Below are positions 34,785-62,182 of a DNA stretch of 64,000 nt, one piece after another. Each line of letters starts with the position of its first letter. Position 1 is the stretch's first letter. Under the pieces are notes generated by a model, which worked only from the letters and a program-made list of their open reading frames with translations, did no database searches and had not been told where the DNA came from. The translations under genes and the position numbers were made by a program. Where the stretch lies: the NCBI GenBank assembly GCA_002794775.1, contig NBAY01000045.1, positions 248,001-312,000 of the forward strand. Reading direction: 5' to 3'. This DNA comes from Porodaedalea pini (Eukaryota; Basidiomycota; Agaricomycetes; Hymenochaetales; Hymenochaetaceae).

Positions 34785-34785
34785 A

Positions 34786-35332: not shown

Positions 35333-35500
35333 TCAATTACATCCTGTCCAAGAAAGTCAGCTCAACGAAAGGCTATGAAGCAGAACGCACACACCTGTAA
35401 CATGAACTGCATATGACATGACATGTTGCTGCTCTTCACAAGCTCCTTCATGCGACTGAAGTAGACGTCCATGTGTCCACAAGCCACAAACTTGTTAGGT
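35333..35500 (-). pseudogene. eIF4G fragment (MIF4G domain piece) with intron
   Basis: Minus strand: HMDVYFSRMKELVKSSNMSC then HMQFMLQ (about 35396-35475), a GT...AG intron of about 51 bp (35346-35395), then DVIEL next to the MITE. This matches the part of the eIF4G middle domain (DVYFxRMKELxKxxNxSSRMQFMLQDVIELR) that binds eIF4A. Only about 35-45 codons remain. The intron shows the piece was copied from genomic DNA. It lies directly downstream of the NOT1 piece in the chimeric unit. The 35500-35770 stretch has nothing I recognise. Confidence 0.6.
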
Positions 35501-35814
35501 CGAACTTTGAGTAGATCCGGCCTCAGTGAGGTAACCCCACGCGTAAGTATTAAAGTAAGAGGATCAACGCCGTCGCGTCAGTAAGACACATTCTTGAAGA
35601 AATTTCTGTAGAGTCAATAGAAAAAAATTCGTCACTACTCTTTGTTTTTAAATACAATACTTGATACAATACAATGTGCAGTAGAAGAAAGAGAGCTTGA
35701 GAGTACCGACAAAGAACAAAAACCAAAGAAAGCAACACAAAAATATCACAGCTGATGAGCATTATTTAATCTATGGTTATGGTTGAAACACACTGCGAGC
35801 AACCTGCACAACAG

Positions 35815-36585
35815 ATGATCTATCAGTACAAGCAAGGGCAAGTGATGAGAAGACTGCAATGTATATTATCCAGCATGAGCGTGACCTCCAGTGCGACACG
35901 CACAAACTCTTTGTCCCAGAAGTCGTACTTGGGGTTGCGCAGGAGCTCAATGAACGTAAGCGGCGCTCCCAACGGGTGGGGACGACGCACAATGAAGCGC
36001 TCCAGTAGCACCCTAGTCATGATCTCACGGAAACAATCGTCCTTCGCCTGCTTGAACAGGTACAATAGGAGGCAGCTGAACCAGTGCGTATGCGCATTCG
36101 GGTAGCGAAGGTGGAGAATCATCGAACCAATCAAGTGGTGTTGACCTGGAAGTAATATGATGGGCTGGGCCAGTCATCGCAAATTGTGTAAAAGAAGATA
36201 ACAGACGCACCTTCAGGATCTAGATTGTATGCCAGGTAGGTCAGAGCGACTACGCCTGGGTCCGTCGGAACGAATGTTGATGTGCCGCTCCGAGCCTTGA
36301 CCTGAGCAACCGAGGAAACACCAACGTACATGACAACCGCGTTCATCAGCGAAATGTTGTACGTCTCTTCGCCTGTCGCAATACCAGGGGCAGGCGCAGA
36401 CGATCTTTGAGTGCAGCCAGGGAGGTCTGCAAGATGCGGCTCAAAGGGCACTGGTCCAGATAGCCTCTAAGATCACCATTTTTGAGGATGAGGGAGAAGT
36501 CGGATAGGATGGGAGGGATCGGGCCCATCTCTGGAATGGACTCGAACTTGATGTTGCGCAGGAGATGCAGAGGAAGGCTTGTGCA
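35815..36585 (-). pseudogene. NOT1 (CCR4-NOT scaffold) C-terminal fragment
   Basis: The minus strand gives the conserved NOT1 C-terminus: [20 protein letters not shown] and [17 protein letters not shown] (36460-36560), EETYNISLMNAVVMYVGVSS (about 36310-36365), FVPTDPGVVALTYLAYNLD (about 36215-36270), then after an intron (GTGCGTCTG...CCAG, about 36142-36210) MILHLRYPNAHTHWF, ITRVLLERFIVRRPHP and FIELLRNPKYDFW (35880-36120). NOT1 is the scaffold of the cytoplasmic deadenylase complex. A frameshift lies near 36390-36420 and the last helices diverge after the VALEVTLML segment. It is joined to PRP8 at about 36575-36590, out of frame with it. Confidence 0.8.
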
Positions 36586-36589
36586 GTAC

Positions 36590-39500
36590 GCTCCTTCAAC
36601 TGCTCGTTGGTCAAGTTCCACACCCCGTCCTTGAGCGAGAACTGCTCTCCACTCATTGTCCGAATCTTCGGCAGAATGCGCACCTCGAAGCCGCTCATCG
36701 AGAAGAGTAGCTGAGGGATGTTTTTGGAGTAGACACTAACAAACGGATCTTCCTATTCAATCATCGTCAAAGAACGAGGCAGGCTCTCCTTCACCTTCCA
36801 GAACACAGCTCGACCTAGATTGACGTCGTGCTTGATCAGGCGCATACGGCAATCCCGCGGCCAACATCTCTTGTTGTCATATCCAATAACATTGTTGTTT
36901 GTTGGATCCGGATTCGCGTCGAAGTAACGTTGTATAAGGTCGCGTGATTCTTCGGCGGTGAAGCGGAATGAAATATGCAAACGATCAACATAACGAGAAT
37001 AGAGACGGACTGGATGGCGTGTCTCGGTCGCAGAATCACGGTACCGCAGGAAATTATTGGGCAGTTGTGGGGGACCCGCCATTTCACTTGCGCGTTGCAA
37101 GCCGAGGATGAGAAGATCGAGGACAAGACCATAGTATTGGAAGACAAAGGCAGTATATGCTCGTATGTGCCATATCTTTGTAGGTGAGAACACAGTTATT
37201 CTTCGCTGTGATATAGTCCGCAAGATTATGGTCGAGAATAAGATGAAGCAGACGGTTGAGAAGGGTCAGGTCAATCTTTTCGTAGATTCGACAGTACAGT
37301 CTCCATCATCACTACGTATTCGCCCTCGCTCGTCTCCCAGATGTCCATCAAGTTATTGATACCCTGGCACCACTTGTACACTAGAAGGGGAGGAGGTTCA
37401 GTGTCCACAGGCTTGATCCACGCCGGGAATAACCCGCGCTTGTCAGCCTCAAAGAATAAGAACTGGTCAAGATATGCGAGCTTGTCATATGTGTCGAAGA
37501 ACTCAATGCCTGCCTCTTTGAAGGCTCGCTGAGTGAGCAAGAGACGCTTGATCCTAGACAAACCTGCACGCGAATCAATAAGCTACACCCTACGACCAAT
37601 TAGAAAAAGAACATACATTTGTGTGGATTGTCATACGCCTGCTCAATGAGAGCAAGCTCCTCACGCTGAGATTCGTTAAGATGACCTTTGACGCTGTACG
37701 CGTCATGCCTATACGAAAGGGGACTGTATGGGAACATCAGTGAGAGCCACCGAAAGACGTAGTTAATTGAATCTTACGGGAATGGGATGGGAGCAAATTT
37801 CCGACTCTCAAACCAGTGGACTGTCGATGTGTAGATCGCAACGGCCTCCTCAGCACTAACGTAAGGACTATCTTTGAGGTAACCATGCTGACGCTCCTGC
37901 TCAGCTTTCAAGTACAGTCGAGTAAGATGCCCTATGTTCTTCTTGACCACAGCCTTGTCGACAGTCGCACCGCACCTGACACGCTCGCGAATGTAGTGCG
38001 CAATCGAGCACCACCAGTCCGCCTTGTTCTTGATGTACCGCAGGATGATGTTCTCGATTGCAGTCGGCATGCCCGGGACCTTCCATGGAGCTGTAGAATA
38101 AGGCTTAGTACGCAAAGTCCAGATTCAACCAAACGACGTACTGTTTGCCTTCCAGCAGTGCGACGCTTCTGACAAGTCCTGCAAGATAGTCTTCGCCTTG
38201 TTCTGCTTGATCGACTCCGGCATCATATCAAGAATATCGTGCATCACGGCAGTGCGTAATTCCAAGTCATTGTGCGATTCGACACGCTGCTTCGTGACCG
38301 GCTTTGCGATGTCCTTGCTGCTGAGACCCTCGAACTGACGCGCAAGCAAGTTTCCGAGCCAGTGCTCAAGCAGCGGTACAACTCCACGCATGAAGAAGAG
38401 CCACACTCGCCAACCTGGAGCACAAAACCCACAGCATGGGCCCTTACCAACAGGTCCCGTATTGAAGCGATAGTAGATTAGATGATTGAGATCTTTGCAC
38501 GTCCGGATCTGACGCATAAGTTTGTACTTGTAACGGTACATGCCGCTGAGCGCGCCGATATGTGCGAAGATATACTGCAATGCATCCGCCAGTTGGAAGG
38601 CATCCACATTGCCAAGCCGGAATTGGACGTGCGCATCGACGACGAGCTTCGTGAGGCGAAGAGTTTCACGGAATGCATTTCCAAAGCAAGCCTTTTTGTG
38701 TTCCTTCGTCGTGAGCGTCTTTACCGGCTTCAGATTCATGTTGTAATCGAGATGAAGGTAATTCAAGTTCTAGAAGGATTGGAAGTCAAAATGATATAAC
38801 GCAGCTTTCCCAACGATCATACCTTGCGACGGACGAGCAAGTTCAGCATGTTGTATCCTTGCCTGCATACTTGCAAACCAGCCTCCACCCAGTCCAGTTT
38901 TGTGGTCTGGAAAAACTTCGTCGCCTTCAACTGACGGAACAGGTTCTTTTTCGTCATCGGCTTCTCCGGCGTCGTCTTCAGCTCGTTGAGAACAAAGCAC
39001 TTGAGTAGCTTCTGGTACGACATGCGAACCTTTACAGGCTGGTTCGGTGGGCAGTGCTCCAAGTACCAATTCTTCACCAATGGTACATCTTGCGCGCGGC
39101 GCATGTGTCCCGAGCGGCGACTGTAAGGCGCCGGCGCCCACCATAAGGCAATACCGTCCGCAGTGCTCTCGTTCTCCAAATCCTTATCCGAGAGGAATGG
39201 CTCAACCTCATCTGGTAGCTCGAATTCATCCTCGTCCGCGCCGTTGGGTCCGAAGATTTCGTCCATTGACGTGCGGAGTGTCAATCAATGGCTTCGGGTC
39301 ATAAAACCAATCAATTATAGCACTGTCCTCCTCCTCATCCAGGTCAAGTTGAATGGCTTCCAGCGGCTCGACATCCAGCACGTTGTCCCCATAGTCGAGA
39401 GGAGGTTCTTCGTCGTCGAAGGGTGGGAAGCGCATACGCTTGAAGTGTCGACGGTCGCGCTTCTCGCGACGCACAGCAAGCCACATGGAGCTCCACTGAG

Positions 39501-40150
39501 CATGATACACCGGCTCAATGACACGCGGAATCTCGTTGACAAAAGTGATTGCACCCGTGATATGGTAGAGGACAGGCACTTCGCGGACCTGCTCCCAGGG
39601 ATACGGGATGTTTTCGCAGTTTCATGACCGCATGGGGGACGTATTTGAGCACACCGAGATGTACACGCTTATCATTACGGAACTTGCGGTTACTCGTGTC
39701 TCCGCAATCTTTTATAATCTTGCGAACGTGCTCGGGCGGAAGATCCTGTAGACAACAGAACATGCCTCGTCAGCGCTCAAGTTGCATGTCACTTACCAAT
39801 GGAACAAAGGCACACCTGCTTCCTAGTATCAACGAATCCACCTTTGCGCTTCTCGCCATAGCGCTTGTTCTGCATCTGGTTCCGCTTATGGGACTTTTGC
39901 GCGAGTACCTCTGGCGGCATCCGCGAACTCGAAGGTTCGCCAGCGGAAGACATAGGCATGCCCGGCGGGGGAGGCGGCATCCCAGGCGTCGTGTCGATAG
40001 CACTGGGAGCACCTGGCGGGGCACCCATAGCGAGGTCATCGTTTACGTTTTGATCGAGTGCAACAATACCATCTGCGACGTCATCGTCCGCTGCATTCGT
40101 GTTGATAACGATATGTGCATCCAAATCGACATCGAGCGCATCAGGCGTAC
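36590..40150 (-). pseudogene. PRP8 N-terminal half, left copy
   Basis: Minus strand. PRP8 is the U5 snRNP core protein at the catalytic centre of the spliceosome. The piece begins with the Pro-rich start (TPGMPPPPPGMP, about 39965), then MQNKRYGEKRKGG, the block [14 protein letters not shown] (39530-39575), [20 protein letters not shown] (about 39415-39475), [13 protein letters not shown] (39180-39225), [15 protein letters not shown] (38830-38870), a retained 56-bp intron, [20 protein letters not shown] (38705-38766), [90 protein letters not shown] and [12 protein letters not shown] (about 36660-36690). About 440 bp present in the right copy are missing at 39265, and 9 bp near 38672. A stop lies near 36750. 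Only the first 1,100 or so of about 2,300 residues are represented; the RT-like, endonuclease, RNase H and Jab1 parts are absent. Confidence 0.9.
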
Positions 40151-40625
40151 CCGCGACACCTACATCGGCTGCACCGGTCGCCGCTGGTCAGGGAGAGTCT
40201 GCAACGATTCCGACGGTCCGACGTCCGTGGGGAAGTGAAGGAGGCGGGGGCAAGTCTTCGTCCATGTCCTGGTCGTGTGATATCGTCGTCTCCATCTCGA
40301 CATCACCATCCGCATCTGGCTCGCCATCATCCTCCATCTCTGTCTCAGGCCTCGAAGTTGATGTCGAGGGCGTTGCCGCTTCTGCCACCATCCGGGCGCG
40401 AATTGTTAGAGAGCGCGCCATCGACGCACCCGCAGTTGCCTGCTCGCGTGCATTCGGCTGTGTGTCCCAAACTCGGCGCGCCACGACTTGCCAGATCTGT
40501 CACGCCCTGGTACGATGACCGTACTTGTTGGGGTACCTGAGCCAGACGGCGTCGCATTCGCAGACGTGTCAGTTGAGACGAACGTCTCAGCATCCAATGT
40601 GGCAACGCTTTATTCTTCCTGAAAG
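40151..40625 (-). pseudogene. Linker region between BTB-like fragment and PRP8, left copy
   Basis: Minus-strand frames carry an acidic run with EMEDDGEPDADGDVEME and DLPPPPSLPHGRRTVG, and another with VSTDTSANATPSGSGTPTST. Also present in the right arm. No domain recognised; it may be part of another host gene or of the BTB-like one. Confidence 0.4.
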
Positions 40626-40639
40626 GCCCTCAGATCAGT

Positions 40640-41785
40640 CAGCCAATAACAAAGATGATGGATGACTCACCTCGGCGTTCGCAAGGGATCGTTCGATAGC
40701 GAGCAGTCTGACGAGTTCTTGGGCCTGCTCGCGCCGACGCTGTTCTAATTGCTGCTGCCGTCGTTGCTGACACTGTTCACGGGTCTCGCGTGGTATGCCG
40801 CTCGCACTCGTGGGAGACAAGGGAAGGCGAAGGGTCGTGAGCTCGCCGGGCAGGGGTATTCTTGAGACCATAGGTGATGAGTTGATCGTAGAAATATGGC
40901 GCACGCGAAACAAGAACGAATCGATGCGAGCAGAAGACGGCGGTCGTCTCTTCTTCATTGCAAGGAGCACCCATTGTTGGCATATCGCTGTGTAGTTCAA
41001 TGCGAATGTCAGAATACAGACGAGACCTCCACATGAAGACAAGGTCCTTCCGAAGCTTGTCGACGCGTGCCTCTTCCACATTGGCGTCGCCTTCCCAGCC
41101 CTCCTCATTCGCATCGAACAAAAACTCAAACACATCCCCAAATCCCTTTCTTGTATAGAGATACTCGAGCTCGTTGGCGAATAACGCGGGATTATGGTTG
41201 AGAGATATGCGCGTGAGGGAGCCGATTACAGAGGGCACAGGGGAGATAGGCCAGAATTGGGAAGGTAAAGTGGAGCACATCGAGGCGGTAGGGGAACTCA
41301 ACGCCAAGGTTGAGAGAGTGTGCAGATGTTGTCGGCATTGGAAGAGACGATATCGGAGAGGCAGCGAAAGGAAGTGGGGACGCGATAGGTGTCGGGCGGA
41401 ACGAGAAATAGTGCGCCTGGGAACTGAGTAGTGCACGAGCATAAACGATAGCTAGCATTTGTTAGTCTCAAGGACAGGTGGTAGGTTCTGCGCTTGTGCT
41501 CACCTTTATGTCCCCAAACCTCCGAGTCCGCGTTGCGGCCTTTGTCCATCGCGTCCTCATCCATTAGATCCCAGACGTCATCTGGGAAGCAATCCTTCGC
41601 GCGATGAAAGAGCGATTGGAGGTCCTCTTGCCATGCTGTTGTCGACCTCTTCGTTGCCTCGAGCAGTGCAGGTGGGCAGGCAGGCAGCTGTGACGGGACG
41701 GCTACCAAGACAAGCAGTGATGTAGTGTGATAAAAAAAAAAGCAGAGAAATCCCAAGAGAAAGGTGAAGGAGACAGACTTGTCGA
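40640..41785 (-). pseudogene. BTB/POZ-like gene fragment, left copy
   Basis: Minus strand: LLEATKRSTTAWQEDLQSLF and VWDLMDEDAMDKGRN (41560-41680), then after an intron AIVYARA, later ALFANELEYLYTRKGFGDVF, DKLRKDLVFMWRSRLYSDIR and FCSHRFVLVSRAPYFYDQL (40875-41180). The SDIRIxL...FxSHRFxLVSRxPYF arrangement is that of a BTB/POZ domain, used for protein-protein contact. A Gln/Arg-rich coiled stretch (EQRRREQAQELVRLLAIERS) follows (40690-40760). The upstream end near 41770 has a hydrophobic TFLLGFLCFFFYHTTSLLVL segment that may be spurious. The left copy has small differences and a frame break near 40860. Confidence 0.6.
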
Positions 41786-43842
41786 CGATGCCTCCCACTG
41801 AGGTTGGAGATCACATGTTGGCACTGTCGTCAACTTTGCTTTTGACCCATTTTTAATTCAACCAGGCCATTTTATTTTACCAAAAACACATAGACAGACA
41901 GAGGATTGTCTGAAGTTTTTTTACATGGTTCAAGCTTGTGATTTGAATGGTTGAATAAAATTAAATATGCCAATGAAGAAAGTGAGCACTGTACAGCCAC
42001 AAAAGCAGTGAACCCTTCATAGCCACAGCCTGAATTTAGTAGAAAAGGGGTCCAAAATTAACATATATGGTATGCCATCAGCTTATAAAAGCTGACAAAA
42101 ACCCAAACTGGGGACTTTATCTTTGCCCACAACAAAAGACGATACTTCGTAAACTCAGTAATCGTAATGCACAGTCACAGCAATGATACAGACATAATTT
42201 CCCTTCCCTACCGCATTCGCATAGACTACCGACATTCAAGTCTTACTCAATATCCATAATGAGGTCTTGAATAATTCTAGTCTTATATTCAGAAAACCTG
42301 ATAGCAGGTGTTCTGCGGATTGCCGCTGATTGTATATCAGTGAGAGGACCTTCACTATACCATTGAATGCTTACCATGAACCCTTCTTTGCTTTCACTGT
42401 CTTGTGCCTTGCTTTCTTCCCAGCAGGAATTTCTGCATGGCTTGTAAATGTGAATGTGGGTTAATATCACATATGATGTTTCATGGCCACTCACCACTAT
42501 TGTCTCAGTAGGTTTTCTGGCCAGCTTCATGGCTTCAGGCATGAGTTGCTCTTGTATTGCTGCATGTGTTACATGCACACCCCCACATGAGCTATTCTGT
42601 CTCAAACCAAGTGAGACAGTGTTATCAAGAAAGTAGACAAGGAACTCGCCTGCTGTAAGCACCCACATTCCATTGATGCAATGACACTTCCCGTACCTGC
42701 TGACCTTGATTCATCTCTGGAAACTTTGATCCCTCCGACATCTTCATCACTATTGGTGGTATCACTGCTGTCACTGTTGTGGCTCCTCACGTAGTATTTG
42801 TTTGCTTTTGGTAGGATGGAAGTCTTGCGAGCCATGGTCAAAAGTAATTGTCGAGCAAAAACTAAGGGTGGTCAGTATATATACCTTTCGTGTATCTAAG
42901 TGGACAATGCCTTTCTATCAACCAGGCCACGTGGCTGGGCCACAAAACAGTTTATACATAGACAATAAGTTATGTGTCTACAAAGTTCATGAAATGATAT
43001 GCTATTCAGAGAACAGAGGAATGCTGGAGTCATCCTAGGTCATGAGAACATATGAGAAGTCCGCAAGAGTAGAATAACTGACACGATGCACTGTAATCCA
43101 CTGAACCATACAAACTATTTTAGCTTGACTTTTGTCACATCAGAGGTGAGCTCTTCCCAACAGTGTCTCTTGTTCCCCGGAATGCAGACTGTGACCTTCT
43201 TTGGGCCTCCATCTCTCTGTCAGGGTAGGCCTGCTACTTCCAGAATCCTGCTGACATGTACGTCAAGGACTCTGATCTGAGTGACAAGTTCTCCTTTTTT
43301 TGTGGGTATATGCAAACATAAGTCTGAAACCGACAAAAGCGATGATGAAAATCTGTGTCCCATGTCGACGTTACCATTGACACGACACCCATTGTGTGAT
43401 GTTGAGCAATTTGTGTGGTTGTCGAAGGGGTCAGCAATAATGAGGACTCCAGATCTATTACGATTACTGAGTTTACGAAGTATCGTCTTTTGTTGTGGGC
43501 CGAGATAAAGTCCCCAATTTGGGTTTTTGTCAGCTTTTATAAGCTGATGGCATACCATATATGTTAATTTTGGACCCCATTTCTACTAAATGTGGGCTGT
43601 GGCTATGAAGGGTTCACTGCTTTTGTGGCTGTACAGTGCTCACTTTCTTCATTGACATATGTAATTTTATTCAACCATCCAAATCGCAAGCTTGAACCAT
43701 GTAAAAAAACTTCAGACAATTATCTGTCTGTCTATGTATTTTTGGTAAGATAAAGTGGCCTGGTTGAATTAAGAATGGGTCGAAAGCAGAGTTGACAACA
43801 GTGCCAACATGTGATCTCCAACCTCAGTGGGAGGCACCATCG
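41786..43842. mobile_element. 2.06-kb element with long terminal inverted repeats
   Basis: Its ends are inverted: CCTCCCACTGAGGTTGGAG at 41791 and CTCCAACCTCAGTGGGAGG at 43816. The repeats extend about 360 bp inward (41790-42160 against 43475-43840) with words such as AAGCTGACAAAAACCCAAA. The right palindrome arm has the empty site at about 54672-54684. The outermost bases are CGATG and CATCG with a 2-bp gap; I cannot fix a target duplication. Interior minus-strand pieces (42243-42841 and 43220-43558) look like exons of a small unknown gene without transposase motifs. Confidence 0.8.
42243..42841 (-). CDS. Small unknown gene inside the long-TIR element
   Basis: A start at 42841 gives MARKTSILPKANKYYVRS followed by a Ser/Asp-rich stretch; frame changes suggest an intron near 42660-42690. 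The next exon has EFLVYFLDNTVSLGLRQNSS and EQLMPEAMKLARKPTETIV, then a probable intron (42410-42490). I recognise no domain. The position between the inverted repeats suggests it belongs to the element; it does not look like a transposase. Only the left arm has it. Confidence 0.35.
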
Positions 43843-43849
43843 CACCTAA

Positions 43850-44375
43850 GGTACATACACCCCAGAATCTAATTAGAGGGGTTACTGCTCCCCTGTAGTC
43901 CCTCTAATTAGGTACCTTTTGGGTTTCTCCCACTTACTGAGCTTAATACTGAGCTGAATTGCAGGACTTACGGACCGGGGAGCTGACCACCGGTAACCAT
44001 GACTCACCGGTCGCCGGCGATGTGCGTCACCTGCCAAATGTGGTATGGCCGGGTCCTCCCTCATCACGCACGTCGATCACACATCGATGCGCGTCATCAA
44101 CACCCCGAGCTCATTGTGCCACACAATGAGCTTGACTAATTCACTCAATTCGCAACCATTTCGCTTCATTTTTTTTGCATTAGTTAGATAAAATTATGTA
44201 TTATATTATCATGCAAATACAAAAATATTGCGTGGTCTTTTTATGAGAGAAAAGCGAGTCGGCATGCAGCCGACTCATATCAATATCTATGAATATTACC
44301 CTGCTTACCCTGTACACCACAAAATATAGATATTCCCTTACTAAAGGCATCCTCTGAACCATTCAATGTGCTAGT
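43850..44375. repeat. Arm leader with hairpins and short repeats, left copy
   Basis: Contains CTAATTAGAGGGG...CCCTCTAATTAG (43870-43912), a CACCGGTAACCATGACTCACCGGT word, several CGACGCGCGTC-like words now partly CpG-mutated (44025-44100), AGCTCATTGTG...CACAATGAGCT (44110-44133) and GAGTCGGCATGCAGCCGACTC (44256-44276). Non-coding as far as I can see; the 61-codon frame in it is kept in both copies but looks like a by-product. Confidence 0.7.
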
Positions 44376-44396
44376 GCGTGGCCGTGCAGTTATGCA

Positions 44397-47300
44397 GGCT
44401 CCTCGTCATCACTCGCTGCGTGCTCGTGGTCCGCATTGCATTTGGTCCATGTTGCTGTTGGTCCGTTTTGCTGCTCATCTGTGTCGTTGCTGCTTGACCA
44501 TTTCCTCAATTCGCTGTTCGAATTGTCTTGCTGCCTGTGCAATGTGAGTGACTCACCGAGGCCAAGTCCTCACAGCAAAACGTGTTTATTTGTAGCTGTT
44601 GTGTAAAAGCATGTGCGCAGCGTTTGAGTTGACTTACAACACATTCAACGTGTTCTGCTCACTTCTTGGTGATTTTACATTTAGAACAAAAGTTTATATT
44701 ATCCTGACATTGTCCAATGTATTCTGAGCAAGAAAAGAGAGCATGTTAAGTAACAGAAAATCAGCAAGAAGAGATCAAAGCAAATATCAAGAAAGGCAGT
44801 GCGCAATGGGACTGGAGAACCACAGAGGATGCACGTAATGAGGCAGAGCAAGATAGGACAACTGGAAAGAAAGAAACAAGAAATATACGTGGTTTTGAAT
44901 GAGCAGAGAGGGGTTACTCGTCAAGAAAATGTTCAAGAAATGATTGGACACAACCATCAGTCTCTGCCCTCGTCAATGTCGACAATGTTAGCTTGGCTCT
45001 CATCTGTCTCCTTACCTTTGTCGGGTTGTGCTTCGGTATTCTTACAGCAATGCATAACAGATGACTTGTGGTATGGACCGCAGGCTACTCCCTTGTCAGA
45101 ATGTGTGCGCTTTGCCTTCTTTGCTGGTGGTTCGCTTGATGATTGCTGGGTGAGAGCCTCGATTTCGACTAGCAAAAGATGTTCCCACCTGCACAAGCTG
45201 TCATGAAGACTCGCAAGAACTTTCTTTAGGTCCACCTTGGACATGCCATCAAGGTTGAAGGACAGCTCGGATGGCCAGCCAACAAGTTTGACCTTGTGCT
45301 TCCTGACTATGTCTTCATTGTAGTTCACCCAGCTCATAGAAAGCATCTCGATGCCAGTAATATCACCTATAAATAATGTAAGTCAAAAAATCTAATACCT
45401 AATTAGAACACACTTACGAAGTTCGTCACGAACAATACCGTGTATCTCACCCTTGCTATCTATCCTTCGTCTAGGATTATTGTCCTTCATGGTTGTTGTG
45501 GCAAGTCCCTCAAGTCCTGATGTCGCAAAGCCCTCATATGAGTTGACGAGAGCATTGATGGACATGTTGAGCCCAGTCTCCAAGAATCGCTTGGAAACAT
45601 TGTCTACATGTATAACGGGTGCATGTGAGCCCAGCGGTGATGTTCAAATGATAATGCATAATGCGGATGTGCCAGCTTGCTTTGAAAGGGCCGTTAACTA
45701 GGTAACTATTAGAAATGATTGTTCACATAGTTAATAAAGAAACTTACTTCTGATATGATGTGCTCGCTTGTATGGCGTACAGTCTGACCAATAGACCTCT
45801 GGGACTGTCGTGACACAGTGGCCTTCTTTGAACGATAGTCTTCAAGGAGTTTGAGGATGTTGTGCTTGGTTTCGTCATCAAGGAGAGTCCAGGAGGAGTA
45901 TCCCTCGCCATCCGGCAAGTTCTGGATGTCCCAAAGCTTCCTTCTGGTGCCTTCGGTGAGAGTGGTAGGGAGATCTATATCAAACAATGTCAGATAATAA
46001 ATTTAAAATACGGCTCTATCAACTAACCTTCATCTTGTAACTGAACGGCCTTGAAATGGTTGAATGCATTGTAAGCATTCACCTTGCAAGTGCTTTTAAA
46101 GGCGGTCATAGCCAGTGCCTTTTGTTTTAGCAGCTCGAGGCGTTCGTTATGCGTACTTGAGATGTTGGCAAGATTCTCCTTATGTCGCTCCATTTCGGAA
46201 TGGACTTCCATCCAGATGGTGAGTTTTTTTTCAAGCCTTGTTGCCCTGGCCTTCACACATTGATCCAATGTGAGGTTCTTCTTGGTAGGGCGCTTCCGAG
46301 TCAGAGAGGATGCAGGTTTGCTCATCTCGAGTGCAACCCTCACGGCAACTTCTGCTGTGTCCAACGGCATAGAGGGAGGGGCATCGGGTGTCACTGACAT
46401 CGGAGGAGAGGTGGGAGGAAATGGGGTGTACATTCGCTAGCCTTGCATGCCTTGCTTTTTGATCATAAATATTCACTTGCCAGCCGATTTGTCTTCATAC
46501 TACCTGTCAACATCAAAAACAATTATAGCACACCTTAGAGGGAAACTCGACAGACTCATCTCATTATATTTAATCAAGATCACAAAACTACATACCGACA
46601 AATGCACATTGGTGCAGGGCAGTAAAGACATTTGCAAAAAAAAAATCAGAAGAGAACAATCAAGGAGCAGCATAGGATACAAGACACTCGACGATGAGAC
46701 AGAGCCGTCAGTCCTTCTTTCGTGTACATCAAGAAGTATAAACCAGACTTTGTCGACTTCAAGGTAGACAGAGTCCTCATGCGAGTCGGTGTCTCAGCCA
46801 CCGAATGTCTGACGACCAGATGAGCCAGCTTCATTCAGCCGAGGTCGATGCTTCCTCACAGTCGATGATTTTGCCTTTTTACTCAGTGACAAGTGAACCA
46901 AAGGTTCTTCCTCGTACTGCTGCAGGCATAGGAGACTGTTCTGACCGTGGTATGGAAAGAGAACCGGACCTTGTGGGCTGAAGAAGACACCGGGCTGCAT
47001 AGCCTGACCAGACTGGTGGTGACATTGCGAGGGAGTCGACAGTGCAACGTGCTGCTGGTGCGGCGGCGAGGGCATGTAGAATCTGGCAGGAAGGAAAACA
47101 CCTCCTATTGGCAGAGCATATGGAGCATAGCCCGCATTTGTGTATCTCTCGCTTGAGGCGGTCGACTCATATTGAGTCGACCGCTCATCATCGTTGTAGT
47201 CGGCATTATCACCTGTGGCCGTTCTCTGCTCTTCAGGCTTTGTGATGACCAAATACTCCGATTTGACCTTCTCAAGATATTCCAAGTCATCTGCTGTGGG

Positions 47301-47507
47301 AGGGACCATCTTCTTCCACATCTCGACTGATGACTGAGCATGCATCATGCAAGTGGAGCATCCAAGAGAGGCAGCGGGAGTACGAGGCTGTGCATCTGCC
47401 GCCGTGGCCGAAGGAGTCCGTGCATGCTGAATGACTGGCGCTGGGATGTTGAGCAAGTCTTCCACTGGCTCTAGCGCAAGCGCTTCATCAGCATCATGGG
47501 TGAGCAT
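44397..47507 (-). CDS. Companion gene of the KDZ element (LVGWP-motif protein)
   Basis: Minus strand, multi-exon. From the 5' side: an exon with Pro/Gln/His-rich and acidic sequence (46794-47507), an exon with RKRPTKKNLTLDQCVKARAT and a helical, Lys-rich stretch (46023-46433), an exon ending YEGFATSGLEGLATTTM (45392-45990) and one with MSWVNYNEDIVRKHKVKLVG and WPSELSF then KKVLASLHDSLCRWEHL (44957-45346). The last small exon is likely acidic and ends with TAA near 44397. From memory, proteins with NYxxxIVxKYxVKLVGWPxxxxF followed by LRxxxxxxxCRWxxL recur in Agaricomycete genomes near transposons, and I infer this is a conserved passenger gene; its function is unknown. Exon joins were not proven, and the 5' exon may belong to a different gene. 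Confidence 0.5.
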
Positions 47508-48328: not shown

Positions 48329-48329
48329 T

Positions 48330-52700: not shown

Positions 52701-53510
52701 TCCATTTGCATCCCATTCGATGTATGCATCGTACAAGCAGTTGTAAAGGTCCTCCCAGTGGTCGTTGCTTATTTGGGTGCGATTGTGTGCAGAGGCCTGC
52801 AAGTATCCCTTGTGCCTTTGAAAACAAACCTCAGACCTTTCACATTTAATTTGCTCAGTACACACCTTTGTTGTAAATACTCAGCATATGCTTTTTTCTG
52901 TCGCTTCTCCTCCTCCTCCTCATCTTCAAAGTCCTCATTGCCATTGTCATCCTCAACAATGATCATGCAGTCCGGAATGCCAGTCGCCTTGCCTGAGAGT
53001 TCGCCTTCAACCCAATCGAGGAGAACACTGTCATCAGCAAAGTCATCGCCTACCTCAAATCCCCCTGGTGCATCGATGCGGGTCTCTTGCTCGGCCTGCT
53101 TCTTCCTTAGGTCGTCATGCATTTCTGTGGCATGTCTGAAGTACTACAACATTGTAATATAGTCAGTGATCGCACCTTCCAGTTCCCGTTTCCTTGCTTC
53201 TCGAACTTCAGCCCGATCATCGTGCGTCGTGCAGACACGCTTCGTATGTCGATTGAAGCTACCGAGGTCATTGTCATGGTCGAGGTAGGATAACTTTACT
53301 TTTTTCGAACCTCCAAGACCAGCCCTTGGCATATTGTGAGTGAGATTCTTGATTTCCGAGCTCGCTGTGATAAGCGAGCACTGTGATCGACAAGCACTGC
53401 AATCGGCAAGTATAAGAGCTTCGCGAACCTTTAGTCGCTTGGCCAACCACTGTGCACGTGATATCAGACTTTCACAATAACAACACACCAAACAAATAAG
53501 TATCAAGGAA
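49771..53510 (-). CDS. KDZ transposase with CxC1 cysteine cluster
   Basis: Minus strand, about ten exons. From the 5' end: KKVKLSYLDHDNDLGSFNRH (about 53260-53320), an acidic and Glu-rich stretch (52900-52960), then the CxC1-associated region LTETMVRHGYMPTAPQHPN and RISMQVLEAYRVISSRCPNLG then IQAFVHGLCKLQ (52375-52540). CPCCTVELPNEEEL and LFVMDGNESLKRNM follow (52100-52215). The core has CIDRWANLSEDSKKKMWGTF, DETGIFVTVCRHSVVLLLCD (51600-51745), YDIGCGF, CGAFHGHAHCRVCQLQWHP and GTGLEDFEGCERVFSESNRV (51270-51490). The C-terminal helical part includes ARTQLGIASDELYEQWHAEE and KPWTREPERNASIKYF (50240-50290), ending at an acidic tail (49771). KDZ enzymes are DDE-type cut-and-paste transposases acting in the nucleus. 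All expected blocks are present and I saw no clear stop within exons, so it may be complete. Confidence 0.75.
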
Positions 53511-53605
53511 GCTCATAGTGATGACTTGACCTATTTCAAACGTGCGGGTGTAGTCAACAACCATGCTAGACAGATGTACGTGCGATCAAGCTCCAGGTTA
53601 GTGGC

Positions 53606-54139
53606 CTATGTGGCCTTGACGGCGGCTACAAAGCTGGTCAGTGTGTCATTGCTGGAGACAGATTGTGTCAAGGACGGTGTCGTCTCCCAGAGGATATTCC
53701 TTGACGCATAGCCATCACTCTCTTCTTTGTCTTCCTCCTCACTGACTTTCTTCTCAACAAGGCCGGCCGACATAGGTGGGATGGTCTTGCACTCAAACTC
53801 GGCGAGGACACCAGTGAACATTGGTACACCTCTTGCCAACACAAGCGAGAGGCTGTAGACAACCTCTCGTGGTTGTAGACCCATGCGTATCGGCGTGCTC
53901 GTGACGCTGTCCGACGCAGGCTCTCCCGCTTTGGTTTCGCCCTCGACCTCATACTCCATCTCTGGCTTCACGTCCAGGTCCGCGATGCTGAACATCAGCT
54001 GCACGGCCTCGTTGCCAAACGTGCGCTCAAAGGTCACCTTAGAGGCCAACCAGCAGCAACACGATCCCAATATAGCGCGCATAGCAGGTGCACGCAGCTC
54101 TCGACATCTAGGAAGCTGCACAGGCATGCACACGGACAT
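53606..54139 (-). pseudogene. Mitochondrial p32/Mam33-like gene fragment
   Basis: A 177-codon minus-strand frame with SKVTFERTFGNEAVQLMFSI then ADLDVKPEMEYEVEGETK and TPIRMGLQP. The VTxERTFGNExxxxxFSIADLxxxPE pattern is that of the mitochondrial-matrix p32/Mam33 family. The later part (after about 53880) no longer matches and is acidic and Lys-rich. The N-terminal targeting region is missing. It lies between the transposase and the right arm, so it may be one more captured fragment or an extension of the KDZ element. Confidence 0.5.
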
Positions 54140-54154
54140 AGCAGGGTTGTGAAA

Positions 54155-54665
54155 TGGCTCAGAGGATGCCTTTAGTAAGGGAATATCTATATTTTGTGGT
54201 GTACAGGGTAAGCAGGGTAATATTCATAGATATTGATATGAGTCAGCTGCATGCCGACTCGCTTTTCTCTCATAAAAAGACCACACGATATTTTTGTATT
54301 TGCATGATAATATAATACATAATTTTATCTAACTAATGCAAAAAAAATGAAGCGAAACGGTTGCGAATTGAGTGAATTAGTCGAGCTCATCGTGCGGCAC
54401 AATGAGCTCGGGGTGTTGACGACGCGCGTCGATGCGTGATCGACGCGCGTGATGAGGGAGGACCCGGCCATACCACATTTGGCAGGCGACGCGCGTCCCC
54501 GGCGACCGGTGAGTCATGGTTACCGGTGGTCAGCTCCCCGGTCCGTAAGTCCTGCAATTCAGCTCAGTATTAAGCTCAGTAAGTGGGAGAAACCCGAAAG
54601 GTACCTAATTAGAGGGACTACAGGGGAGCAGTAACCCCTCTAATTAGATTCTGGGGTGTATGTAC
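54155..54665 (+). repeat. Arm leader with hairpins and short repeats, right copy
   Basis: GAGTCAGCTGCATGCCGACTC (54240-54260), GAGCTCATCGTG...CACAATGAGCTC (54383-54409) and several CGACGCGCGT words (54419-54500) are present. CCTAATTAGAGGGACTACAG and CCCCTCTAATTAG form a long imperfect stem (54604-54648). The GC-rich repeats are better kept here than in the left copy. Confidence 0.7.
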
Positions 54666-54671
54666 CTTAGG

Positions 54672-55850
54672 TGCACCGTCGACGAGTCTGTCTCCTTCAC
54701 CTTTCTCTTGGGATTTCTCTGCTTTTTTCTTTATCACACTACATCACTGCTTGTCTTGGTAGCCGTCCCGTCACAGCTGCCTGCCTGCCCACCTGCACTG
54801 CTCGAGGCAACGAAGAGGTCGACAACAGCATGGCAAGAGGACCTCCAATCGCTCTTTCATCGCGCGAAGGATTGCTTCCCAGATGACGTCTGGGATCTAA
54901 TGGATGAGGACGCGATGGACAAAGGCCGCAACGCGGACTCGGAGGTTTGGGGACATAAAGGTGAGCACAAGCGCAGAACCTACCACCTGTCCTTGAGACT
55001 AACAAATGCTAGCTATCGTTTATGCTCGTGCACTACTCAGTTCCCAGGCGCACTATTTCTCGTTCCGCCCGACACCTATCGCGTCCCCACTTCCTTTCGC
55101 TGCCTCTCCGATATCGTCTCTTCCAATGCCGACAACATCTGCACACTCTCTCAACCTTGGCGTTGAGTTCCCCTACCGCCTCGATGTGCTCCACTTTACC
55201 TTCCCAATTCTGGCCTATCTCCCCTGTGCCCTCTGTAATCGGCTCCCTCACGCGCATATCTCTCAACCATAATCCCGCGTTATTCGCCAACGAGCTCGAG
55301 TATCTCTATACAAGAAAGGGATTTGGGGATGTGTTTGAGTTTTTGTTCGATGCGAATGAGGAGGGCTGGGAAGGCGACGCCAATGTGGAAGAGGCACGCG
55401 TCGACAAGCTTCGGAAGGACCTTGTGTTCATGTGGAGGTCTCGTCTGTATTCTGACATTCGCATTGAACTACACAGCGATATGCCAACAATGGGTGCTCC
55501 TTGCAATGAAGAAGAGACGACCGCCGTCTTCTGCTCGTATCGATTCGTTCTTGTTTCGCGTGTGCCATATCTCTACGATCAACTCATCACCTATGGTCTC
55601 AAGAATACCCCTGCCCCTGGCGAGCTCACGACCCTTCGCCTTCCCTTGCCTCCCACGAGTGCGAGCGGCATACCACACGAGACCCGTGAACAGCGTCAGC
55701 AACGACGGCAGCAGCAATTAGAACAGCGTCGGCGCGAGCAGGCCCAAGAACTCGTCAGACTGCTTGCTATCGAACGATCCCTTGCGAACGCCGAGGTGAG
55801 TCATCCATCATCTTTGTTATTGGCTGACTGATCTGAGGGCCTTTCAGGAA
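54672..55850 (+). pseudogene. BTB/POZ-like gene fragment, right copy
   Basis: Same order as the left copy: VWDLMDEDAMDKGRN (54890-54935), an intron near 54960-55012 (GTGAGC...GCTAG), AIVYARA, NELEYLYTRKGFGDVFEFL (55290-55345), DKLRKDLVFMWRSRLYSDIR (55405-55465) and FCSYRFVLVSRVPYLYDQL (55530-55590), then a Gln/Arg-rich coil (55680-55790). The second half of a BTB domain and anything beyond it are missing; the sequence turns into the acidic linker and PRP8. The CAP-Gly region at 61.45-62.2 kb may be the other end of the same host gene. Confidence 0.6.
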
Positions 55851-56330
55851 GAACAAAGCGTTGCCACATTGGTTGCTGAGACGTTCGTCTCAACTGACAC
55901 GTCTGCGAATGCGACGCCGTCTGGCTCAGGTACCCCAACAAGTACGGTCATCGTACCAGGGCGTGACAGATCTGGCAAGTCGTGGCGCGCCGAGTTTGGG
56001 ACACACAGCCGAATGCACGCGAGCAGGCAACTGCGGTGCGTCGATGGCGCGCTCTCTAACAATTCGCGCCCGGATGGTGGCAGAAGCGGCAACGCCCTCG
56101 ACATCAACTTCGAGGCCTGACACAGAGACGGAGGATGATGGCGAGCCAGATGCGGATGGTGATGTCGAGATGGAGACGACGACATCACACGACCAGGACA
56201 TGGACGAAGACTTGCCCCCGCCTCCTTCACTTCCCCATGGACGTCGGACCGTCGGAATCGTTGCAGACTCTCCCTGACCAGCGGCGACCGGTGCAGCCGA
56301 TGTAGGTGTCGCGGGTACGCCTGATGCGCT
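55851..56330 (+). pseudogene. Linker region between BTB-like fragment and PRP8, right copy
   Basis: Contains VSTDTSANATPSGSGTPTST and the acidic DGEPDADGDVEMETTTSHDQ run, as on the left. No domain recognised. Frames differ slightly from the left arm. Confidence 0.4.
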
Positions 56331-56340
56331 CGATGTCGAT

Positions 56341-59300
56341 TTGGATGCACATATCGTTATCAACACGAATGCAGCGGACGATGACGTCGCAGATGGTATT
56401 GTTGCACTCGATCAAAACGTAAACGATGACCTCGCTATGGGTGCCCCGCCAGGTGCTCCCAGTGCTATCGACACGACGCCTGGGATGCCGCCTCCCCCGC
56501 CGGGCATGCCTATGTCTTCCGCTGGCGAACCTTCGAGTTCGCGGATGCCGCCAGAGGTACTCGCGCAAAAGTCCCATAAGTGGATCCAGATGCAGAACAA
56601 GCGCTATGGCGAGAAGCGCAAAGGTGGATACGTTGATACTAGGAAGCAGGTGTGCCTTTGTTCCATTGGTAAGTGACATGCAACTTGAGCGCTGACGAGG
56701 CATGTTCTGTTGTCTACAGGATCTTTCGCCCGAGCACGTTCGCAAGATTATAAAAGATTATGGAGACACGAGTAACCGCAAGTTCCGTAATGATAAGCGT
56801 GTACATCTCGGTGCGCTCAAATGCGTCCCCATGCGGTCATGAAACTGCTCGAAAACATCCCGTATCCCTGGAAGCAGGTCCGCGAAGTACCTGTCCTCTA
56901 CCATATCACGGGTGCAATCACTTTTGTCAACGAGATTCTGCGTGTCATTGAGCCGATGAATCATGCTCAGTGGAGCTCCATGTGGCTTGCTATGCGTCGC
57001 GAGAAGCGCGACTGTCGACACTTCAAGCGTATGCGCTTCCCGCCCTTCGACGACGAAGAACCTCCTCTCGACTATGGGGACAACGTGCTGGATGTCGAGC
57101 CGCTGGAAGCCATTCAACTTGACCTGGATGAGGAGGAGGACAGTGCTATAATTGATTGGTTTTATGACCCGAAGCCATTGGTTGACACTCCGCACGTCAA
57201 TGGTTCGTCCTACAAATACTGGTCGCTTTCACTCCCCATCATGGCCAACTTGTATCGACTCGGTCGGTCACTCCTCTCGGATCACACCGACAGTAACTCG
57301 AGTTACTTGTTCGACAAGAAGTCTTTCTTCACCGCTAAAGCACTCAATCTGGCCATTCCTGGTGGTCCTAAGTTCGAGCCTCTGTATAGGGACATGGACT
57401 CTTTTGACGAGGATTTTAACGAGTTCAATGACATCAACAAGATCATTATTCGTCAGCAGATTCGTACTGAATACAAGGTTGCTTTCCCGCACCTGTACAA
57501 TTCTCTTCCACGTTCTGTGCATATTTCGCCTTACCATACGCCGAAGAACGTCTACATACGCACGGACGATCCTGACTTGCCTGCTTTCTACTTCGATCCG
57601 CTCATTAACCCTGTCTCCTCTCGTGGTTTCCAACCAAAGAATGACGAAATTTTCGGACCCAACGACGCGGACGAGGATGAATTCGAGCTACCAGATGAGG
57701 TTGAGCCATTCCTCTCGGATAAAGATTTGGAGAACAAGAGCACTGCGGACGGTATTGCCTTATGGTGGGCGCCGGCGCCTTACAGTCGCCGCTCGGGACA
57801 CATGCGCCGCGCGCAAGATGTACCATTGGTGAAGAATTGGTACTTGGAGCACTGCCCACCGAACCAGCCTGTAAAGGTTCGCATGTCGTACCAGAAGCTA
57901 CTCAAGTGCTTTGTTCTCAACGAGCTGAAGACGACGCCGGAGAAGCCGATGACGAAAAAGAACCTGTTCCGTCAGTTGAAGGCGACGAAGTTTTTCCAGA
58001 CCACAAAACTGGACTGGGTGGAGGCTGGTTTGCAAGTATGCAGGCAAGGATACAACATGCTGAACTTGCTCGTCCGTCGCAAGGTATGATCGTTGGGAAA
58101 GCTGCGTTATATCATTTTGACTTCCAATCCTTCTAGAACTTGAATTACCTTCATCTCGATTACAACATGAATCTGAAGCCGGTAAAGACGCTCACGACGA
58201 AGGAACACAAAAAGGCTCGCTTTGGAAATGCATTCCATTTGTGCCGTGAAAACCTTCGCCTCACGAAGCTCGTCGTCGATGCGCACGTCCAATTCCGGCT
58301 TGGCAATGTGGATGCCTTCCAACTGGCGGATGCATTGCAGTATATCTTCGCACATATCGGCGCGCTCACCGGCATGTACCGTTACAAGTACAAACTTATG
58401 CGTCAGTCCGGACGTGCAAAGATCTCAATCATCTAATCTACTATCGCTTCAATACGGGACCTGTTGGTAAGGGCCCAGACTGTGGGTTTGGGGCTCCAGG
58501 TTGGCGAGTGTGGCTCTTCTTCATGCGTGAAATTGTACCACTGCTTGAGCACTGGCTCGGAAACTTGCTTGCGCGTCAGTTCGAGGGTCTCAGCAGCAAG
58601 GGCATCGCAAAGCCGGTCACGAAGCAGCGTGTCGAATCGCACTATGACTTGGAATTACGCACTGCCGTGATGCACGATATTCTTGATATGATGCCGAAGT
58701 CGATCAAGCAGAACAAGGCGAAGACTATCTTGCAGGACTTGTCAGAAGCGTGGCACTGCTGGAAGGCAAACAGTACGTCGTTTGGTTGAATCTGGACTTT
58801 GCGTACTAAGCCTTATTCTACAGCTCCATGGAAGGTCCCGGGCATGCCGACTGCAATCGAGAACATCATCCTGCGGTACATCAAGAACAAGGCGGACTGG
58901 TGGTGCTCGGTTGCGCACTACATTCGCGAGCGTGTCAGGCGTGGTGCGACTGTCGACAAGGCTGTGGTCAAAAAGAACTTAAGGCGTCTTACTCGACTGT
59001 ACTTGAAAGCTGAGCAGGAGCGTCAGCATGGTTACCTCAAAGATGGTCCTTATGTTAGTGCTGAGGAGGCCGTTGCGATCTACACATCGACGGTCCACTG
59101 GCTTGAGAGTCGGAAACTGCACCCATCCCATTCCCGTAAGATTCAATTAACTATGTTTTTAAGTAATTCTCATTGATGTTTCCATACAGTCCCCTTTCGT
59201 ACAGGCATGACACGAAGTTGCTCGTGTTGGCTCTTGGGAAGTTGAAAGAGGCGTACAGCGTCAAAGGTCGTCTTAACCAATCTCAGCGTGAGGAGCTTGC

Positions 59301-60122
59301 TCTCATTGAGCAGGCGTATGACAATCCACACAAATGTATGTTCTTTTTCTAATTGGTCGTAGGGTGTAGCTTATTGATTCGCGTACAGGTTTGTCTAGGA
59401 TCAAGCGTCTCTTGCTCACTCAGCGAGCCTTCAAAGAGGCAGGCATTGAGTTCTTCGACACATATGACAAGCTCGCATATCTTGACTAGTTCTTATTCTT
59501 TGAGGCTGACAAGCGCGGGTTATTCCCGGCGTGGATCAAGCCTGTGGACACTGAACCTCCTCCCCTTCTAGTGTACAAGTGGTGCCAGGGTATCAATAAC
59601 TTGACGGACATCTGGGAGACGAGCGAGGGCGAATGCGTAGTGATGATGGAGACCGTACTGTCGAAGGTCTACGAAAAGATTGACCTGACCCTTCTCAACC
59701 GTCTGCTCCGTCTTATTCTCGACCATAATCTTGCGGACTATATCACAGCGAATAATAACTGTGTTCTCACCTACAAAGATATGGCATATACGAACACATA
59801 CGGGATGACCCGTGGTCTGTAGTTCTCTGCCTTTGTCTTCCAATACTATGGTCTTGTCCTCGATCTTCTCATCCTCGGCTTGTATCGCGCAAGTGAAGTG
59901 GCGGGTCCCCCACAACTGCCCAACAATTCCCTGCAGTACCGTGATTCTGCGACCGAGACACGCCATCCAGTCCGTCTCTATTCTCGTTATGTTGATCGTT
60001 TGCATATTTTATTCCGCTTCACCGCCGAGGAATCACGCGACCTTATACAACGTTACCTCAACGCGAATCCGGATCCAACAAACAACAACGTTATTGAGTT
60101 TAACAACGAGAGATGCTGGCCG
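56341..60122 (+). pseudogene. PRP8 N-terminal half, right copy
   Basis: The Pro-rich start (TPGMPPPPPGMP, about 56475) is followed by an intron near 56650-56718 and a frame from 56821 to 58080 carrying [98 protein letters not shown] and AFPHLYN. Then the 56-bp intron, [20 protein letters not shown] (58139-58200), a 2-bp deletion near 58407 that shifts frame, [40 protein letters not shown] and [13 protein letters not shown] (about 59888-59926). A stop replaces a codon near 59488, and the segment between the FFDTYDKLA block and [11 protein letters not shown] is shorter than in PRP8. It keeps about 440 bp lost on the left. Copying ends within NNERCWP. It is not functional as PRP8. Confidence 0.9.
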
Positions 60123-61440
60123 TTGAAGGGAAGTGAATCCCGTTTGGCTTCAGGTATCGCACACTACCTTACTTTACGAAGGATGACTTCAGCCCAGAGG
60201 CGCGCGGTTTCGTTGAGAACTCGTATCTTCGTGGATTAACTCCGCAAGAGTTTTTCTTCCGCGCTATGGCTGGTCGCGAAGGTTTGATCGATACCGCTGT
60301 CAAGACGGGCGAGACTGGTTACATTCAACGTAGACTTGTAAAGGCACTCGAAGACGTGGCTGTCTGCTACGACGGGACTGTACGAAACTCACTGGGTGAC
60401 CTGATCCAATTCGTGTATGGCGAGGATGGTATGGACGGTGCTTTTATTGAACGGCAAACGATCAAAACGTTCGGTATCAATGATCGCAAGTTCGAACATC
60501 GCTATCGGGTCGACATCACTGACCCGAAGGGTGGATTCCTTCCTGGTGTTTTGCAAATCGGTATCGACGACTCATCCCTCGAGCTCCGGCAAAAACTCGA
60601 CGAGGAATACGACCGTCTTCATGAGGATCGTAAATTGCTCCGTGAATTCATTTTCCAGAGCCGTGACAGTTCCACTGCCCACTATCTTCCTGTCAACCTG
60701 AACCGCATCGTGCAGAACGCAACGCAGATTTTCCATATCGACCGCAGAAAACCGAGCGATCTGGAGCCGGTTTACATCATTGAGCAGGTGCAGCAGCTGG
60801 CGGACCGCCTCATCGTTGTGCGCGGCGATGATCTTTTAATAAAGGAGGCTGCCGAGAACGCTTCTGTTGCATTCCACATGCACCTTCGGGCGACTTTTGC
60901 CGCTTGTCCAGTCCTAGAGGAGTTCCATCTCAACAGAGAAGCGTTTGACTGGATCTTGGGCGAGGTGGAGACAAAGTTCAACCAGTCGGTCGCTCATCCG
61001 GGTGAGATGTGCGGCACACTCGCTGCCCAGTCGATCGGTGAGCCGGCGACGCAGATGACACTAAATACCTTCCATTACGCTGGTGTTTCGAGTAAAAACG
61101 TCACGCTCGGTGTGCCGCGTCTTAAAGAAATCATCAACGTCACCATGAATATCAAGACTCCGCTGCTGTTGACACGAGGGCCAAGTCGGTGCAAACAGAA
61201 CTTGCGTACACATCGCTGCGTACCGTTACAGCGGCGGTCGAGATCTACTACGATCCTGATTCAAGTACAACGATCATTGAGGAGGATAAGCATTCTTCGT
61301 CATCTCCGACGAGGAAATTGAGTCGGGTCTTCATATTCAGTCGCCATGGCTACTTCGCCTTGAGCTCAGTCGCTGAAGATGCTTGACAGGAAACTTACGA
61401 TGAATTACGTTGCTGACCGTATCGCGGAAAGCTTTGCCAT
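60123..61440 (+). pseudogene. RPB1 fragment (RNA polymerase II largest subunit)
   Basis: Starts with [20 protein letters not shown] (about 60150-60210), then [20 protein letters not shown] and [20 protein letters not shown], which is the bridge helix, and after a long intact stretch [20 protein letters not shown] and [20 protein letters not shown], which is the trigger loop. The open frame from 60266 reaches 61321, but RPB1 homology leaves it near 61170 and continues in other frames ([20 protein letters not shown], then LLRLELSR and [20 protein letters not shown]) to about 61440. The clamp core, N-terminal part and the CTD heptads are absent. The join to PRP8 is out of frame. In a cell RPB1 makes mRNA; this piece cannot. 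Confidence 0.9.
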
Positions 61441-61451
61441 TGCCAAAAATG

Positions 61452-62182
61452 CCATCTAAGGAAAATATCGACCCTGATGATCCTCCCAATACAGGCAGTA
61501 CATTGACGATTATATGGAAGGGGAAGGGGAAGGGGAAAGGGCGGGCGGATGCCATCATCGCAGACGACAGATCTCTGCAATCGAGCGACAACGGATCAAA
61601 TACAACTCTCGCTACATTGCGGCACAAGGAATCGAATGACATCATTACCCTCAATCGAGTGCCTGCGGGGGAGACGGCATCTGCAAGCGAGACGGTCATG
61701 CTGCAACCCCGTGGCGCTACATTGGACATCGGCATTCCATGTATCATTACTTCAAAGCGGACGCGGTTCTGTGCATTTGCCCGTTATATCGGCGAGGTTG
61801 AGGGTGAGAGCGGGCCATGGGTTGGTGTCAAGGTGCCCGTGGGCGATGCTTGGGCAGACAATGAGCTCGAGGGCCGCCAGTGGAATGACGGCTCATGGGG
61901 TGGCGTGCGCTACTTTGACATCGGGACTTTGGCATCGGAATGGGGCAACGACAAATGCATGGCCCACCGGCAACGCGATTTGATGAATAACTATGGAACT
62001 AGCATTATTAGTGGCTAGAAGGGCACGAAGCGTGAGGGGGAGCAGCTCAGTGTTGACCACAAGAAGCGTTTCTGTAGCATGTCGCCATCAGTGTTGGACG
62101 TGTCGAATGTGGAGTATCGAGGTCTCTTTGTGAGGCCACAGCAGGTGCTGTATGTTGTAGATGCTGTCGGTTCGGACTTGTG
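61452..62182 (+). pseudogene. CAP-Gly domain gene fragment
   Basis: Directly after RPB1. MPSKENIDPDDPPNTG opens a frame with a Lys/Gly run, then GIPCIITSKRTRFCAFARYI, GEVEGESGPWVGVKVPVGD and RQWNDGSWGGVRYFDIG (61730-61925), which is a CAP-Gly fold of the kind that binds microtubule plus ends or EEY/F tails. The NDGSWGGVRYF stretch replaces the usual GKNDGSVQGxRYF motif. Past a TAG at about 62016 the match continues out to RGLFVRPQQVLYVVDAVGSD (62119-62180), as at the end of basidiomycete proteins of this kind. So either a read-through stop or a lost intron breaks it. Could be a real gene end or a captured piece. Confidence 0.6.

Follow-up and report, generated by a model that had tools for sequence, protein, structure and literature searches.

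Two chimeric units of host-gene pieces in Porodaedalea pini as probable non-autonomous Helitron-like elements with variable 3' cargo

In the genome of the basidiomycete Porodaedalea pini (assembly GCA_002794775.1; 53.3 Mb in 201 contigs, numbered here with the prefix C), two chimeric units that string together pieces of PRP8, RPB1, NOT1, eIF4G, BTB-domain and CAP-Gly genes lie side by side on contig NBAY01000045.1. The window analysed is the 64,000-nucleotide stretch C45:248001-312000, and positions are counted from its first base unless a contig is named. The units stand head to head, 1.29 kb apart, inside another KDZ-type element, the right one at 43458-63016 on the plus strand and the left one at 28827-42167 on the minus strand, each bounded by a 5' and a 3' motif. 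The right unit encloses a KDZ transposon (43843-54673), and the tail of the left unit is split within its terminator by a Gypsy long terminal repeat (LTR) retrotransposon (28888-35209, minus strand) with a target site duplication (TSD) of AATAA; both are later insertions than the units, which without them measure about 8.7 and 7.0 kb, respectively. The limits of 35333 and 62182 given in an earlier note, made from the sequence alone, were thus too narrow, and its description of two units with a common BTB-PRP8 5' part holds, the units being inverted and their arms 94-99% complementary.

The right unit begins with a 5' terminal region (43458-43842, TTACGATTACTGAGTTTACGAAG...), resumes beyond the nested transposon with a piece of a BTB-domain gene (54682-56476, limits inexact), and continues through a PRP8 piece with introns (56477-60122; 95.8-96.8% identical to a PRP8 gene on C12), an RPB1 piece cut within PF04990 (60123-61403, right limit approximate) and a CAP-Gly gene piece (61404-62018, limits approximate; PF01302 at 9e-7) to the 3' terminal palindromic sequences and the end ...CTACCTCAAG (62714-63016), placed by the 3' motif and by tail comparison, all on the plus strand. 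In the left unit, read on the minus strand, a PRP8 piece with a 461-bp deletion relative to the C12 gene (36561-39988) leads into a C-terminal piece of NOT1 (35479-36560; PF04054 at 1.6e-35) and a piece from the MIF4G region of eIF4G (35333-35478), beyond whose end the longer relatives L051, L052 and L055 run on (copies compared across the genome carry L numbers). Pfam matches bear out the earlier naming of the PRP8 (PRO8NT, PROCN and RRM_4), RPB1 (domains 5, 6 and 7, with domain 4 under the cut-off), CAP-Gly and NOT1 (C-terminal domain) pieces. The BTB piece has no Pfam match of its own, but its naming is borne out by relatives, which carry PF00651; among the named relatives, proteins of Phellopilus nigrolimitatus rank first (55-65% identity), followed by those of Phlebia brevispora and Pyrrhoderma noxium. 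The eIF4G piece has no profile match and was assigned by eye from its translation. As to the PRP8 junctions, the right one had been placed exactly at 60122, and the left one lies at 36561 and not near 36580. A search of Rfam gave no matches.

Native loci of RPB1 and NOT1, and a presumed native PRP8 gene, lie elsewhere in the genome. Among 64 PF04990 rows a single one is complete, in a 1207-aa frame at C5:1016367 that covers all 136 profile positions; the other 63 make up 57 partial RPB1 loci, including that of the window, and 43 of these 57 end at profile position 79-83. For NOT1, one complete domain locus (C3:1913921-1915062) stands against 11 partial loci. The PRP8 locus on C12, presumed from its sequence to be the native gene, has a PROCT domain (with one TAG read through in the match) and exon-sized open frames, and shorter PROCT matches occur on C5, C54 and C23. 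The PRP8 pieces of the window are 94-97% identical to the C12 gene, and have kept its introns and acquired frame-breaking indels.

The spacer between the units (42168-43457) is part of the KDZ-type element that both entered, as judged from its similarity to paralogues (94-95% identity to those on C10, C93 and at C45:364159, and 77% to that on C15), and just past the left joint, within 28362-28823, there is a CxC2 domain (PF18803). When the window flanks were joined and aligned with these four paralogues, both insertion sites proved to be empty in all four, with an exact A^T, no duplication and no gap at the joint. The empty site of the right unit reads CCAGATCTA^TCCTTTG in all four, with substitutions in C15; that of the left unit is flanked in the window by TGCA^TGGG (minus strand), where the four empty paralogues differ by substitutions. 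Insertion at T^T without duplication was rejected, because alignment of the four empty sites to a joint of one T needs no gap. Two further candidate sites were dropped, one for a copy on C26, reconstructed from LTR repeats and ambiguous by eye, and one for a copy on C62 inside antisense PRP8, whose 5' flank differed from prediction; the C62 copy is probably nested.

The ends themselves are of the form 5'-TTACGATTACTGAG... and ...CAGTAATCGTA-GCTTGCCATCCTAATGGCCCACTACCTCAAG-3', with an asymmetric inverted repeat, TACGATTACTG lying 1 bp from the 5' end and CAGTAATCGTA some 31 nt before the 3' end, and within the 8-15 bp expected of Helitron2. A 3' hairpin (GCCAT-CCTA-ATGGC) lies 13 nt from the end and is more stable than most shuffled sequences (z of -2.8 and -2.1; 2 and 9 of 200 shuffles fold equally well). 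Among 17 copies compared on the 5' side (15 fetched and the two of the window), 12 start sharply with TTACGATTACTGAGTTTACGAAG behind unrelated flanks, and among 13 fetched tails, six (L044 and L046-L050) show the 3' end AACAGTAATCGTAGCTTGCCATCCTAATGGCCCACTACCTCAAG behind the unit body. A 12-base 5' motif occurs 98 times in the genome, against 5 times for its reversed control, and a 34-base 3' motif with up to 3 mismatches occurs 199 times, against none for its control, only the first of these places being listed. The base before the 5' end is A in 14, G in 5 and T in 2 of 21 distinct flanks, and the 3' motif is followed by T in all 21 distinct cases, a count that takes in inward-facing arms of the palindrome. 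L075 and L076 show TTACGATTACTG and then other sequence; they are within the 98 but do not enter the flank counts. At C77:170607-170693 four 5' motifs follow one another at an exact spacing of 25 bp as a small tandem array.

On the same strand and within 20 kb upstream the 5' motif precedes 36 of the 57 RPB1 copies, 10 of the 11 NOT1 copies and 24 of the 26 listed PRP8 copies (26 of 281 candidates were scored, 24 of them outside the window), compared with 10, 2 and 5 copies, respectively, for motifs on the opposite strand. Conversely, on the basis of partial lists of the pieces, 61 of the 98 motifs lie within 15 kb of a same-strand piece of PRP8, RPB1 or NOT1.

What follows the fixed 5' part varies. 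Read by eye, the tails end in a palindromic terminator of about 180 bp, or in one arm of it, at some seven positions: about 61506, 62434, 62457-62462, 62541-62545 and 62713 on the track of the right unit, and about 35461 and 35333 on that of the left. Beyond six of the seven another copy continues, and for 62713 none was seen. These tails, and one 5' end found behind 21 distinct flanks and before two cargo chains, support the earlier proposal of a family that has captured host genes and in which the 3' cargo changes while the 5' part stays fixed. On C1, a 5' motif (2979476) is followed by NOT1 (2972055), RPB1 (2966318) and a 3' end (2965048), so that both cargo chains seem to be present in this copy after a single 5' motif, as would be expected if copying had run from one unit into the next.

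RepHel (HUH Rep plus helicase) is present at eight loci of the genome, several of them with long open frames, and in C54, C128 and C105 it adjoins antisense PRP8 with the same breakpoint, an adjacency that may hint at kinship with the unit family. At L060 (C77), near 1060-1230, the tail of a chimeric unit and its palindromic terminator lie inside a RepHel open frame, and compared with this 3' junction the same point is uninterrupted in L057 and L062. The units are very probably non-autonomous Helitron-like rolling-circle elements, in which copying by RepHel, end bypass and palindromic terminators would vary the cargo behind a fixed 5' end. In such a scheme the RepHel protein of a related element would nick the 5' end, one strand would be copied until the terminator, the 3' hairpin end, was met, and the copy would be inserted at another A^T. 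If copying went past the usual end, host DNA alongside or an adjacent unit would be picked up, and short palindromic elements of about 180 bp, which hold the 3' end in both orientations, would serve as new terminators, so that the cargo would be lengthened or trimmed behind the constant 5' end. End bypass has been shown experimentally for Helraiser, as reported in PMC4778049.

A number of observations weigh against this interpretation. In five of the 17 compared copies the 5' motif is missing from its expected position: L030 and L039 run into other sequence slightly inside the usual start, L031, L033 and L042 are interrupted, and in all of these the motif sits 1.2-3.9 kb further upstream. Six tails (L045, L051-L053, L055 and L056) show no 3' end, and the only one in L054 faces inward, 1.2 kb further along. 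For 37 of the 98 5' motifs there is no listed piece of PRP8, RPB1 or NOT1 within 15 kb, and 21 of the 57 RPB1 copies are without an exact 5' motif within 20 kb upstream. The 5' hairpin pairs but is no more stable than shuffled sequences (z of -0.5 and -0.9), and the elements end in TT...CAAG, not TC...CTRR. When the family ends were sought in the RepHel loci, no RepHel was found joined to them, and in C54 and C128 RepHel runs antisense to the family 5' motif nearest upstream of the PRP8 piece. At the left joint a single T restores a frame of 180 aa, which is weak evidence, since two T would also leave a frame, of 178 aa, and since the CxC2 domain lies entirely on one side of the joint.

By their mode of insertion and their termini, the units are Helitron-like with Helitron2-like ends. 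Insertion at A^T without target duplication, found for both units, and the 3' hairpin are features of the Helitron superfamily, but canonical Helitron1 elements have 5'-TC and CTRR-3' ends where the units have 5'-TT and CAAG-3'. As Helitron2 is described by Bao and Jurka (2013, PMC3627910), its inverted repeat lies 0-2 bp from a 5' end that starts with T, as here, and its 3' counterpart stands just before the hairpin at some 20-30 bp from the 3' end, which is similar here; the same description includes elements with RepHel in reversed orientation. However, Helitron2 targets are given as TTTT^T/C and those of Helentrons as TT in PMC5148889, unlike the A^T of both tested units, and the Helitron2 5' hairpin has only a weak counterpart. 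No subgroup is assigned because the TC/CTRR ends and the TT or TTTT targets are absent and the 5' hairpin is weak.

Several known systems resemble parts of what is seen here. The FoHeli elements of Fusarium oxysporum, as presented in PMC5148889, are likewise fungal, have asymmetric inverted repeats and form composites by self-insertion, and FoHeli4 and FoHeli5 add reversed open reading frames as a further likeness, but their end sequences differ from those of the units. That account lists 27 putative capture events, finds no evidence of an important role for capture in the species complex, and remarks that capture on the scale of maize has rarely been observed elsewhere. HELPO1 and HELPO2 of Pleurotus ostreatus, as reported in PMC4289320, are agaricomycete Helitrons with A^T insertion, a subterminal hairpin, cargo genes and a Gypsy element nested in a Helitron, but they end in T[C/G] and CTRR (CTTG in HELPO2), and fragments of P. 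ostreatus genes are there said not to be seen in intact elements. The bat elements Helraiser and Helibat share the A^T target, the 3' hairpin terminator, end-bypass capture and new 3' ends, and differ in their TC/CTAG ends; according to PMC4778049, the five new Helraiser ends that arose in cells lack a palindrome, whereas the new ends here are provided by a palindromic module that is repeated. The class of mechanism is already known, and with its Helitron-type insertion and Helitron2-like ends the family is of no new kind. It is unusual for a fungal Helitron-like family whose palindromic terminator is repeated to have captured host genes extensively, and no report of such a family was found in the part that was viewed of the matches in the open-licence literature.

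More speculative is the idea, possible though on balance doubtful, that the palindromic elements of about 180 bp are portable, orientation-independent terminators that create a new 3' end in either direction when they insert into a rolling-circle element, so that captured core-gene cargo could be cut and recombined again and again behind one 5' end. If this were true, they would amount to a modular end-swapping system that goes beyond accidental bypass. Pieces of RPB1, PRP8 and NOT1 belonging to one family occur at tens of places in a single genome, with nested layers and several stages of tail change, in contrast to the two fungal Helitron studies cited above, of which one (PMC4289320) saw no pieces of host genes in intact elements and the other (PMC5148889) ascribed no important role to capture. 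With nested layers, empty sites and tail stages in one genome, the end-bypass model becomes testable by sequence, and the near-identical pieces could mislead the annotation of single-copy core genes.

Among other explanations, it has been considered that the head-to-head units or their transcripts might make RNA acting on PRP8, RPB1, NOT1 or eIF4G. Judged by the sequence, inverted and near-identical PRP8 arms with 94-97% identity to the C12 gene would suit such a role, but the arms are now separated by the KDZ element and the head-to-head arrangement was examined in this window only; an effect of this kind appears improbable.

A second alternative, that a cut-and-paste transposon with terminal inverted repeats (TIRs) captured the genes in the manner of Pack-TIR elements, starts from the 'leader' (54155-54665) with which, according to the earlier note, both units begin. 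The leader is indeed a genuine TIR and adjoins both units. However, it bounds a separate element nested in the right unit's 5' part, the KDZ transposon (43843-54673, minus strand), and was rejected as the 5' end of the family. This element has TIRs of about 520 bp, 97% identical (43843-44361, minus strand, and 54155-54673, plus strand), pieces of a KDZ transposase domain in two frames (51198-51769, minus strand; PF18758 at 1e-16 and 1e-44), and its own 8-bp TSD, CACCATCG/CACCGTCG, with one mismatch between the copies; its relatives have CTACAGAA/CTACAGAA, TGAAAGGA/TGAAAGGA and ACACCATC/ACGCCATC. Transposase, TIRs and 8-bp TSD together identify it, and not the units, as a KDZ element. With the element nested there, the left unit too has one of the TIRs facing it, and for this reason both units seemed to begin with the leader. 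The leader has 21 matches in the genome, including six inverted pairs 10-23 kb apart; 198 kb around four KDZ relatives (on C89, twice on C45, and on C21) held no match to the BTB, PRP8 or 5' regions, and shared with the units no more than 46 bp at 87%, on C89. Outside the window 24 PRP8 places are listed, and none is at a leader match; the units themselves have no TSD. Capture by a TIR transposon is thus highly unlikely, and the KDZ element is a bystander that does not carry the gene pieces. As Zisupton and other KDZ elements are described in PMC12730594, they likewise combine KDZ domains with TIRs, and the nested element shares its CA..TG termini with Kyakuja and its 8-bp TSD with Zisupton. 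Large KDZ-type elements of 10-23 kb with a common TIR family are found on C45, C89, C38 and C21, and C45 alone holds three inverted pairs of this TIR.

It might also be argued that the units are an assembly artefact or a segmental duplication, given that the region is nested and rich in repeats and that the copies on C54 and C128 have a common 5' flank, so that some copies may have been duplicated together. The listed PRP8 places (26) and the partial RPB1 loci (57) are spread over many contigs, the ends are sharp with unrelated flanks and the empty sites are exact, all of which makes this a most improbable account. That the units are retrotransposed, spliced chimeras, as several genes in a single orientation might suggest, can be given practically no credence, the PRP8 copies aligning through the introns of the C12 gene at 94-97%.

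Other repeats lie to the left of the units. At 25559-27375, four copies of about 400 bp with 88-99% similarity alternate in orientation and make up nested inverted repeats. A 753-aa frame without a Pfam match (15452-17713, minus strand) is enclosed at 14584-17951 by direct repeats of at least 300 bp that are 100% identical and stand 3.07 kb apart; this is possibly a young unclassified LTR-type element. A frame for a Copia-type reverse transcriptase (RVT_2) occupies 12932-14008.

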